Part shown: positions 35,119 to 40,585 of the stretch, one piece after another
Layout of the letters: every line of letters begins with the position of its first letter
Position numbering within the stretch: position 1 is the first letter of the stretch
Origin: Synergistaceae bacterium
GTDB taxonomy: Bacteria; Synergistota; Synergistia; Synergistales; Aminobacteriaceae
Assembly (NCBI GenBank): GCA_031267575.1
Contig: JAIRYN010000010.1
Span: forward strand, 1 to 40,585
DNA length: 40,585 nt
Reading direction: 5' to 3'
The notes under the pieces: generated by a model
Seen by the model: only the letters and a program-made list of their open reading frames with translations
The model's database searches: none
What the model was told of the DNA's origin: nothing
Made by a program: the position numbers and the translations under genes

Positions 35119-36579
35119 TTATTCAAAAATTCGCGTGCCCTTTCGGCGTTCTCTGGGCAGCAGGTTGATCGCTGGGTACTCGAAAGCCGAGAGACGTTCC
35201 AGCCCGACGCCCGTCACCAGGACCGCACTTTCGGAGTTTTCCCCGACGGGCGAACCTGGCACGCGATAATACCGTATATCGGGCGCCGCTATCGATTCTT
35301 CTTTTGGTAGATCCCGTTGAGGTATCCACTCGTAGGGCACCCGGTAGGCTCTGTACACCATGTTGTGAGTGCCTCCCATAGAATTTGAGTAGTATGGGTT
35401 GATGTACTCCCACACGGTCCTGTGATCGATGGTCACCTCGAAAATTCGCCCGTCCGAACCTTCAGTGATGAGAGTGTTCCCGTTTGGCAGGCGCTGCGCG
35501 GAACTCACATACGGACTGTAAAAACGAAATTCATCGGAGAAGCCTGCGTTGACCGCGTTATATTCCCACTCGACCTCCAAAGTGACGGGGTTGAACTCGA
35601 TCACGCGCGAATAATCCCTGTGCACGCTGTTTTGTCCCGTTTTGGACGTCCCGCCCGGTAGGCCGTACCCTCCCCACCCACCGTTGTCGAACACGAGCAG
35701 GTTGCCCTCTCCGGGCAATCCTTTGGGAATCATGTGAAGATGATGCTGCCCTATGATCCAACCCAGTTGTTCAAGCGCCGCGTTCTCCCGAAAATCGGGC
35801 CCGATGCGCCAAGCCACCTTACCGGTGGCCTTGCTGGTGATCGCGAGGATATTCGCGTTGCGGGCGTCCCAGATCATATTGTCGGGATGAAAGCGCTCAT
35901 CGCCTGAGTCGTACCACTTATTGGGGCCGAGCGTCGAAAGACAGTTGACATGCAGCCAATCGCCGAGTCCGCTTGTGACCACCGAAGGATTGCGGAACAG
36001 TACGTTGAGAGCCTTTTCGTCGAAACCCAGTTCATCGAAATGTTCATTCGCGTTCCACTCCCAGAGGAGATTTCCCTCCCAGTCGACTTCGATGAAGCGG
36101 TCATCCAACAATTTTTTGTCGGATATCCTGTTGTTGACGATGTCCTTATGGACCAAGATCAGCGTGTTTCCTCCATCGACGCGTGGTTTCGAGAGCGGGG
36201 AGTAATAACCCACCGACGACCCCTCACGTTCAAAATCGTGATGCTGACGCGCGATGTACTCGGCTGGCCTGTCGGGGTCCTCTATGAATTCGTTTTTCTC
36301 GAACTTCCACACGACCTTACCGTCCCAGTCCACTTGCAGCAAAGCCAGGTGATCCTGAAAGCCGTATTTTGGATTTCGCGCGCCTGGAGAACCAAAGACC
36401 TGTCCACCCGGCAGGATCTTGTTGGGAAAACCGAGCAAACCCTCCCAAAGTTGCACTTCATTGCCCCTCATGTCGATGAGCAAAGCCCCTTTAGCCGAAG
36501 GAAATATCGTGTACCCGCTCCACGCGGACGCTGAATCGTAGTACGTCGTGCCTGTCGGGTATATTCTTGGATGTCCCAT
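35119..36579 (-). CDS. Arylsulfotransferase (ASST)-family protein, paralogue 2
   Basis: About 486 residues from ATG 36579 (MGHPRIYPTG), preceded by AGGAGGAG; the ATG two codons upstream touches that site and is less likely. Matches to the ASST/aryl-sulfate sulfotransferase family include GALLIDMRGNEVQLWEGL, RQHHDFEREG, NEHFDELGFDE, GPNKWYDSGDERFHPDN, IIGQHHLHMIPKG and SAQRLPNGNTLITEGSDGRIFEV; repeated W-x-W/NG segments give a beta-propeller. His residues in QHHD and QHHLH are candidates for the sulfated catalytic His. No signal peptide is visible, so it is probably cytoplasmic, unlike the classical periplasmic enzymes. It lies 12 bp after its paralogue. Confidence 0.85.
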   Translation of the reverse strand: MGHPRIYPTGTTYYDSASAWSGYTIFPSAKGALLIDMRGNEVQLWEGLLGFPNKILPGGQVFGSPGARNPKYGFQDHLALLQVDWDGKVVWKFEKNEFIEDPDRPAEYIARQHHDFEREGSSVGYYSPLSKPRVDGGNTLILVHKDIVNNRISDKKLLDDRFIEVDWEGNLLWEWNANEHFDELGFDEKALNVLFRNPSVVTSGLGDWLHVNCLSTLGPNKWYDSGDERFHPDNMIWDARNANILAITSKATGKVAWRIGPDFRENAALEQLGWIIGQHHLHMIPKGLPGEGNLLVFDNGGWGGYGLPGGTSKTGQNSVHRDYSRVIEFNPVTLEVEWEYNAVNAGFSDEFRFYSPYVSSAQRLPNGNTLITEGSDGRIFEVTIDHRTVWEYINPYYSNSMGGTHNMVYRAYRVPYEWIPQRDLPKEESIAAPDIRYYRVPGSPVGENSESAVLVTGVGLERLSAFEYPAINLLPRERRKGTRIFE

Positions 36580-36591
36580 GATCATCTCCTC

Positions 36592-38115
36592 CTATTTCTC
36601 AAATTTCTCAAAATCGACGACTTTCTCAAAATCGACGACGCAGAAATTCGACAGCTCGGCCGCGCCGGACGGAGAAAGTTCACGGAAAGGATCGGCGACA
36701 AGTTTTTCCGAGCCGCCGGCCACTCCCTCGACCTTGGTCACCTTGCCTCCTGGCCCAAGAGGAGCTCCAGGGACACGGAATTCGCTGACATTCGGAGCCT
36801 CTATCGAGTTCTCGTCTGGCGGGTCGAGCTGCGGTATCCAACCGTAAGGCACACGATAGGCCCTATAGGTCATGTTATTCACTAGAATTCCGTCGCGTCC
36901 GCGTGTTATCGTGCGAAAATAAGGTGAGACATACTCCCATACTGTTTTGTGTTCCGGAGTCACCTCGAACAGCCTGCCGTCGCGCCCTTCGGTGATGAGC
37001 GTATTGCCGTTGGGCAGACGCTGGGCCGAGCTGACAAACGACGTGTAGAATTTGTACGAGTCGAGAGGGTGAATGTGTCCCGCTTCTTTGGGAGAATACT
37101 GCCACGCTATCTCAAGCGTCGTTGGGTCGAATTCGAGGATGCGCGAATAATCACGGCGTACATTCGCCGTTCCGTACTTCGAGACGGAGTTCGGCGCTCC
37201 ATACCCCGCCCAGCCTCCGTTGTCATAGACGAGAAAATTTCCCTCTCCTGGAAGTCCCTTTTGGATGAGGTGCAGATGGTGCTGGCCTATGATCTGCCCA
37301 AGAGCGCCCCCGGTTTTCTCGAAGTCAGGACCCACGCGCCACACTATTTTCCCCGTCTTTTTGTCGATGATCGCCATCACGTTCGCGTTCCGGCCATCCC
37401 ACACGATATTGTCCGGGTGAAAGCGGCCGTCCCCGGCGTCGTACCACTTATTTGGGCCAAGCCTGTTGATGTTATTGATCGCGAGCCAAAACCCCTGCCC
37501 GCCGTGCGCCACGTCGGAAGACGGAAGCCGGTATAGAACATTCTTCGCCGCCTCGTCGAAACCCAATTCGTCGAAATGCTCATTCGCGTTCCACTGCCAG
37601 ACGATCTCTCCATCCCATGTGACCTCGATTATGGAGCTGTCGAGCAGCACTTTGTCCGATACGTGAGGATTGAACACGTTCCGCGTGACGATCATCAGCG
37701 TATTGCCGCCATCCGCGCGCGGCGCGCCTCCAGGCGAGTAATATCCGGTCGCGGAGCCCTCCCTCTGGTAATCGTGATTCTGCCTGGCGATCCACTTTGG
37801 GGGCCTGCCGGCGTCGGCGACGTATTCGAACCTGTCGAACTTCCAGACGATGTTTCCATTCCAATCCACCTGAACGAGGTCCAGGTTGTCGAACGTGTGA
37901 CAAGCCGGGGCGCGTTCACCGGTGCTGCCCATCACGTAACCTCCAGGCAAAATTTTGGGAGGATCGCCCTTGAGTCCGCGCCAAACGCGAACTTCTTTCC
38001 CGTTCATGTCCATGAGGATCACGCCCTTGGCAGACGGCAGAACAGTGTAACCGCTCCAGGCGGCGTCCTTGTCGTAAATAGTCACTCCGGTCGGATAAAT
38101 TGTCGGATGGCCCAT
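36592..38115 (-). CDS. Arylsulfotransferase (ASST)-family protein, paralogue 1
   Basis: About 507 residues from ATG 38115 (MGHPTIYPTGVTIYD) with GAGGAGG at 6-nt spacing; the longer TTG start upstream lies within that site. Family motifs are as in the neighbour (RQNHDYQREG, NEHFDELGFDE, GPNKWYDAGDGRFHPDN, IIGQHHLHLIQKGLPGEGN, SAQRLPNGNTLITEGRDGRLFEV). The first His of the HHD motif is Asn here. The C-terminus ends with repeated VVDFEK VVDFEK FEK, from an 18-bp tandem duplication (36604-36639). It lies 24 bp after the permease gene. The family transfers sulfate from aryl sulfate esters to phenolic acceptors; the substrate here is unknown. Confidence 0.85.
   Translation of the reverse strand: MGHPTIYPTGVTIYDKDAAWSGYTVLPSAKGVILMDMNGKEVRVWRGLKGDPPKILPGGYVMGSTGERAPACHTFDNLDLVQVDWNGNIVWKFDRFEYVADAGRPPKWIARQNHDYQREGSATGYYSPGGAPRADGGNTLMIVTRNVFNPHVSDKVLLDSSIIEVTWDGEIVWQWNANEHFDELGFDEAAKNVLYRLPSSDVAHGGQGFWLAINNINRLGPNKWYDAGDGRFHPDNIVWDGRNANVMAIIDKKTGKIVWRVGPDFEKTGGALGQIIGQHHLHLIQKGLPGEGNFLVYDNGGWAGYGAPNSVSKYGTANVRRDYSRILEFDPTTLEIAWQYSPKEAGHIHPLDSYKFYTSFVSSAQRLPNGNTLITEGRDGRLFEVTPEHKTVWEYVSPYFRTITRGRDGILVNNMTYRAYRVPYGWIPQLDPPDENSIEAPNVSEFRVPGAPLGPGGKVTKVEGVAGGSEKLVADPFRELSPSGAAELSNFCVVDFEKVVDFEKFEK
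36595..36639. repeat. 18-bp tandem duplication at the end of the arylsulfotransferase gene
   Basis: tttctcaaaatcgacgac occurs exactly twice (36604-36639), with a partial third copy before it, in the last codons of the gene. Confidence 0.9.
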
Positions 38116-38139
38116 CTCATACCTCCTCAAACATATTAA

Positions 38140-39933: not shown

Positions 39934-40265
39934 GATAAAGCGATGAGAAAGCCAACGGCTTCAGCCGTTGTTGGATGAGAGGTGAGATTGGATGAGAGAT
40001 GAGATTGGATGAGAATCGCAACGCCGCCCACGGTGGCGTTTGTTTTGTATTTGGTTTTTTGCCATACGTCTACTTTTATATTAAACTCCTTTTATAGCTT
40101 ATCAACGCGAAATGCGGGGCGAAACACGACCGGGATATCAATGTGGCTGTGAATATTCTCAGAGTAGGGACATCCACTCTTAAAGGAGAAGACGTAAGAC
40201 CGGTTTCAGCCGGCTGTCTTTGTCGATCTTAGAATCCCACAGCTTTAGTCGTGGGAATATGTCAA
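39934..40265 (+). mobile_element. IS200/IS605 mini-element, copy E (both ends intact)
   Basis: It follows TTAC (39930-39933), starts GATAAAGCGATGAGAAAGCC, has a left hairpin (CCAACGGCTTCAGCCGTTG), the shared internal sequence, codons for a TnpB C-terminal relic (DINVAVNILRV), a right-end hairpin (about 40229-40252) and ends TCAA at 40262-40265. A 17-bp repeat (2.6 copies, 39971-40014) sits after the left hairpin. At 332 bp it is the most complete copy and encodes no transposase. Confidence 0.85.
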
Positions 40266-40276
40266 TCGTCGTGTTA

Positions 40277-40305
40277 TTGCTTTCCGATATAAAATGTGGT
40301 ATAAA
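40277..40305 (+). promoter_or_regulatory. Possible sigma-70 promoter TTGCTT-17-TATAAA
   Basis: TTGCTT (40277-40282), a 17-bp spacer and TATAAA (40300-40305), about 100 bp before the ATG at 40401. It begins 11 bp past the right edge of copy E. Confidence 0.4.
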
Positions 40306-40400
40306 AATAGGTATAAAATATGAGATGTGTTTGGCGGAGAAAATTGGGATTCTAAATTTTGTGTCAAGGTTTTGATCGAGTTAATTTAGGGGAGAAAATC

Positions 40401-40535
40401 ATGATTTCAACGCTTGTTTTTCACGTAAAATCGGATATAATAATAAACAAGCAACAAGCAACAAGCAACAAGCAACAAGCAACAAGCAACAAGCAACAAG
40501 CAACAAGCAACAAGCAACAAGCATTATCTTCTTAA
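40401..40535 (+). CDS. Small ORF containing 11 heptanucleotide repeats; possible phase-variable gene start
   Basis: The ATG is preceded by AGGGGAG with 6-nt spacing. The frame encodes 44 residues: MISTLVFHVKSDIII, then three rounds of the 7-residue NKQQATS repeat plus part of a fourth, then ALSS and a stop at 40533-40535. Because the unit is 7 bp, loss of one unit or gain of two would move translation into a frame that stays open to the window end (at least 21 further codons, reading LLKFFKALCLFDIITIAAS). Function unknown. It could instead be non-coding. Confidence 0.4.
   Translation: MISTLVFHVKSDIIINKQQATSNKQQATSNKQQATSNKQQALSS
40446..40522. repeat. Heptanucleotide tandem repeat (aacaagc), 11 perfect copies
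   Basis: 77 bp of the exact 7-bp unit aacaagc. No interruptions are seen, which suggests recent or ongoing slippage. Confidence 0.97.
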
Positions 40536-40585
40536 ATTCTTCAAAGCTCTTTGTCTCTTTGATATAATAACTATTGCGGCTTCGT

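Follow-up and report, generated by a model that had tools for sequence, protein, structure and literature searches.

Phase switching by a repeat inside a leader peptide has been described for the pili of Streptococcus gallolyticus, where the pil1 attenuator was established by mutants, chloramphenicol, and reporter tests (PMC3894217). In pil1/pil3, a short ORF with its own ribosome-binding site (RBS) carries a pentamer repeat (GCAGA), whose unit is not divisible by three. Downstream come a terminator hairpin and then a distinct gene, and the repeat number sets whether the leader stops before the hairpin or in/past it. Two further systems share some features with the locus described here. The heptamer arrays of Haemophilus influenzae hmw1A/hmw2A have promoter-like sites on both sides (PMC8262952), and in Streptococcus suis modS the number of 5' GAGCA repeats sets the frame behind a translated start (PMC6265453). 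Our literature search found repeat-slippage leader-peptide attenuation described only for the S. gallolyticus pili, and a search for the heptamer AACAAGC, in array form or as a single word (six of seven rotations), returned no phase-variation paper.

The window analyzed here is a 40,585-nt stretch of a Synergistaceae genome that ends within a heptamer-repeat module. By analogy with pil1, this module probably follows the same attenuator logic, with a heptamer (AACAAGC) in place of the pentamer, in another phylum, and at nine loci in one genome. Unlike the pil1/pil3 switches, which precede pilus genes, the copies in this genome are accompanied by radical-SAM and glycan-type enzyme genes, as judged from sequence alone.

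Array, leader ORF and promoter-like sites in the window

The array (AACAAGC)11 occupies positions 40446–40522 of the forward strand, on which all elements of the module lie, and every unit is perfect (TRF: unit AACAAGC, period 7, 11.1 copies, 100% match, 40446–40523). Eleven perfect units are no chance event. A Shine–Dalgarno sequence (SD), AGGGGAG, at 40388–40394 is followed by the leader ATG at 40401, and the array begins 45 nt past this ATG. As assembled, the leader ORF (40401–40535) encodes MISTLVFHVKSDIII(NKQQATS)n...ALSS* with its stop codon at 40533–40535. As in pil1, a repeat unit not divisible by three thus sits within a short ORF that has an RBS of its own. The first-pass annotation was right that an RBS and ATG open into 11 perfect 7-bp repeats and that the present copy number leads to an early stop.

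The frame entered after the array depends on the remainder of the unit number n divided by three. A remainder of 0 leads to a stop at 45 nt and a remainder of 2, the assembled state, to a stop at 13 nt, while the frame for n = 1 mod 3 contains no stop up to 40585; the claim that removing one unit or adding two would open the frame to the window edge therefore holds.

Three promoter-like sites flank or overlap the leader. Candidate promoter P1 (TTGCTT-17-TATAAA, 40277–40305), recognized by consensus only, agrees with the sigma-70-like promoter annotated upstream, and its −10 is largely conserved in eight loci of the module; the 5' UTR (40322–40387) is common to the same eight loci. P2 (TTGTTT-16-TATAAT, 40414–40441; 9/12 matches) ends 4 nt before the array. 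On the 3' side, P3 (TTCAAA-17-TATAAT with a TG before the −10, 40540–40568; 10/12 matches) reads TTCAAA-17-TGATATAAT. At its right edge (40576–40585), the window enters the 5' arm of a terminator-like hairpin. These initial 10 nt of the arm are identical in three paralogues (contigs C57, C22, and C60), and the remainder of the hairpin lies past the contig end.

Immediately to the left of the module, positions 40105–40265 resemble the end of a TnpB gene of the IS605 type together with its right end, and the last 65 bp of this stretch are found some 35 times across the genome. Further upstream, in the ORF list, two similar tandem genes on the minus strand (35119–38130) appear arylsulfotransferase-like and adjoin a sulfonate/taurine-type ABC transporter.

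At least nine copies of the array in one genome

Position 40585 is the end of contig C10 in an assembly of 76 contigs that is 97% complete. Searching this genome with 40201–40585 and with three AACAAGC units revealed the array at eight further loci (at least nine in all), seven of which also have the conserved 5' flank. Fully read arrays have 3 units in C57, 8 in C69, 10 in C60, 11 in C10, and 13 in C64, whereas those reaching a contig end have at least 6 (C43), 9 (C31), 15 (C22), and 16 (C63) units. Nearly all copies sit at contig ends, as would be expected of near-identical repeats that interrupt an assembly. The unit number is different at each fully read paralogue, which is in keeping with the contingency-type locus that had been proposed.

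Alignment of eight loci gave the order −10-like TATAAA, 5' UTR, SD, ATGATTTCAACGCTTGTTTTTCACGTAAAATCGGATA, and array. Variable columns numbered 16/58 in the UTR, 2/13 in the SD region, and 3/37 from the ATG to GATA, making the last of these the most conserved block of the module. A GGAG-type SD and the ATG were retained in all eight loci. The array begins 43 nt past the ATG in C43, against 42, 45, or 48 nt in the other seven loci. In five of the six loci measured, the array end is separated from GATAYAATAA by 35, 38, or 47 nt, each of which is 2 mod 3; this count takes C64 as the exception as judged by eye. Frame spacing thus departs in C43 and C64. The 63 nt past the window array are the same as those of C69, match those of C57 save for a 9-nt difference, and finish with the 10 nt of the hairpin arm. 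A leader piece, TCGTAATTGTTCAAGCTCAGGAGG, was found at other places and considered as a gene family; this was rejected, as the piece is part of a separate dispersed repeat. The dispersed repeat TTGTAATTGTTCAAGCTCAGGGGGGCGGAGCCCGTTCGGCCAAA occurs at many places in this same genome (L039–L052) and is in part similar to the sequence that precedes the module's gene start.

The right side of the module was read from three paralogues, C57, C22, and C60. In each, GATAYAATAAC stands 35–47 nt past the array and is followed by a hairpin, GCGGCTTCGTT...AACGAGGTCGC, with an inner CGTG/CACG stem and then TTTTTT. This hairpin, a candidate counterpart of the intrinsic terminator of pil1, was detected by folding (−26.9 to −28.3 kcal/mol, z −6.3 to −7.9) and was not listed by a simple terminator scan; an Rfam search of the paralogue leaders gave no match. 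Eighteen hairpin pairs are kept in all three sequences, six of them with a one-sided change and none with a two-sided change, so that among three related sequences pair conservation lends the hairpin modest support.

The frame for n = 1 mod 3 crosses the hairpin in all three paralogues and stops just past the T run in C22 and C60, whereas the two other frames stop 16–52 nt before the hairpin; the present stop of the window lies about 43 nt before the hairpin start. Since one open frame in three over 50–60 nt is the chance expectation, this pattern alone is weak evidence. On the 3' side of the hairpin, an SD is followed by the start ATGTTTGATAGATTGCTCTCG, with GTG in C60. Past 40585, the C10 locus is predicted to complete the hairpin and to carry an RBS with a start that resembles ATGTTTGATAG.

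In C57 and C22, the first ORF past the hairpin breaks off after 16 codons, and B12-binding radical-SAM genes then follow (PF02310 and PF04055, tested in C57 only); in C60 it is open and cut by the contig end. The start of the C60 gene matched a zinc ribbon below threshold only, and a search of the rest of the genome gave no good relative; neither the 142-aa frame of C57 nor the 81-aa ORF of C22 matched a Pfam family. Related clusters in C25 and C65 contain glycosyltransferase, SPASM radical-SAM, and FkbM methyltransferase genes (families tested in C65). From these families, we infer that the downstream enzymes act in surface glycan chemistry. The B12/radical-SAM gene is rare in the family, with distant relatives in genomes G004 and G034 only.

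Probable leader-peptide attenuation and competing explanations

We consider it probable that the window array is part of a phase-variable leader-peptide attenuator. The module, its paralogues, the hairpin, and the reading frames are there to be read in the DNA, and the following steps would link them. A transcript started upstream would carry the short ORF, with its own RBS and (AACAAGC)n inside, and slipped-strand gain or loss of units in the population would shift the frame past the array. In two of the frames, the ribosome would stop before the hairpin, which would then form and terminate the transcript short of the next gene (OFF). In the third frame (n = 1 mod 3), translation would run across the hairpin and block it, and the next gene would be transcribed (ON). 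Of the fully read copies, C60 (n = 10) is predicted to be ON, and C10, C69, C57, and C64 are predicted to be OFF. The attenuator is favored because its anatomy matches that of S. gallolyticus pil1, and what carries the argument is the conservation of RBS, ATG, and hairpin together with a spacing that is largely retained, rather than the frame pattern alone. Against it count the broken first ORF of C57 and C22, the departures in spacing at C43 and C64, and P2 and P3, which have no place in this model and are left unexplained by it.

Phase variation at the window locus is likely, and the locus is predicted to be in the OFF state. The first-pass annotation had proposed an OFF contingency locus whose ORF continues rightwards as a surface gene: copy number does set the frame, and the early-stop frame is the present one, but a surface gene as the continuation of the leader ORF is unlikely. 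This judgement rests on the paralogues because the sequence to the right of the window is absent from the assembly. The open frame closes 107–110 nt past the array in C22 and C60 and amounts to 106 codons without a Pfam match in C57, and in all three the terminator-like hairpin and a separate RBS and start codon come next. Translational phase variation within one long surface-protein gene, out of frame at n = 11, is accordingly improbable, even though the frame for n = 1 mod 3 meets no stop before the window edge and a family relative, G076, has the AACAAGC heptamer inside a WbsX ORF. In modS, the repeat sits in the effector ORF itself, whereas the paralogues here have a separate downstream gene, and a repeat and effector joined in one long ON-frame ORF were not found in C22, C60, or C57.

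A different possibility, which we regard as rather unlikely, is that the array, placed between P2 and P3 or serving as the 5' untranslated part of a transcript from P2, tunes transcription or mRNA stability by its length without a leader peptide. The positions of P2, 4 nt before the array, and P3, after it, suit such a rheostat, as does hmw1A, whose expression falls as 7-bp repeats are added between its own P2 and P1 (PMC8262952). Moreover, among the matches listed from other phyla, a sigma-70-like promoter with at least 10/12 matches ends a few bases before the array in 9/62 non-redundant arrays, against 0.35 expected from shuffles and 1/66 on the reverse strand. The attenuator does not need this pattern, which supports a rheostat or another role for P2. 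Length tuning leaves the conserved SD, ATG, and hairpin unaccounted for, however, and a transcript from P3 would begin at the hairpin itself; unlike in hmw1A/hmw2A, whose two-sided promoter-like sites are matched here by consensus only, an SD and ATG lead into the array and a hairpin follows it. There is also a slim chance that the module is an inert dispersed repeat, a broken promoter-leader piece scattered by recombination whose units no longer switch. The ORF broken past the hairpin in C57 and C22, the gene fragments that adjoin, and the many other dispersed repeats in this genome would fit this, but SD, ATG, hairpin pairing, and perfect arrays are retained at diverged copies, and unselected arrays should gather point changes.

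Leader-peptide attenuation remains our preferred reading, and a wider one can be put forward tentatively: the nine copies may form a dispersed switch set for a surface-modification repertoire, with P2 as part of the device. On this view, unrelated phyla would have recruited AACAAGC more than once, always in the same orientation and next to a −10 hexamer, as a mutable cassette for initiation and leader. In such a cassette, transcription from the first bases of the array might promote slippage or set the OFF level. If true, a multicopy attenuator in Synergistales would, given the look-alikes in other streptococci, Lactobacillaceae, and Oscillospiraceae, make this a general type of switch, and ordinary phase-variation screens may miss such switches because the repeat lies outside the effector ORF.

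Related arrays in the family and in other phyla

Among the 83 family genomes searched, the genome of the window included, the array was present in two others, G004 and G076. G004, whose array matches that of BNVH01000011 (Synergistales bacterium MS502-76), begins with ATGACAAGG..., which leads into 12 full units. A hairpin (−21 kcal/mol, z −3.0) comes next, and behind it lies a gene for an MBOAT acyltransferase (PF03062) in a neighborhood of glycosyltransferase-like genes. The G076 locus matches L174 (Synergistaceae RGIG3383); its WbsX glycosyltransferase ORF (PF14307) opens with about five units, out of frame with the TTG/ATG start; on its sequence, this is classical in-ORF phase variation of the modS class. 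That both relatives have the array before or inside surface-glycan enzyme genes again accords with a contingency-type locus.

Among the matches listed, the AACAAGC array occurs in many unrelated genomes. The array continues into an open frame of at least 150 codons in 17/61 cases on the AACAAGC strand versus 5/63 on the reverse strand; the corresponding numbers are 24 versus 13 for a leader start with SD, 16 versus 10 for a terminator-like hairpin, and 8 versus 2 for both, all plain counts that ignore relatedness. The best look-alikes among these matches are L108 (Lactobacillaceae), L150 (Streptococcus porci), L139 (S. caballi), and L151 (Oscillospiraceae), which, together with G004, have a layout like that of the window module. 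L159 (Treponema vincentii) has an array and a terminator with no clear leader start.

In L106, L129, L131, L151, L159, L165, L169, and L173, from unrelated phyla, a TTGACA...TATAAT-like promoter ends 1–4 nt before the array and often overlaps the possible leader start. In L150, L139, and L157 (Streptococcus sp.), the heptamer precedes a gene for a DNA methylase of Type III-like kind (PF01555, tested in L150). In L150 and L139, this gene stands behind a hairpin and a short leader ORF, and the methylase may be phase variable by attenuation. In Brachyspira (L130, L136, L145, L167, and L178), several AACAAGC arrays closely precede genes whose large products appear to be membrane-bound and gave no confident Pfam assignment, and two of these arrays share almost the same leader.
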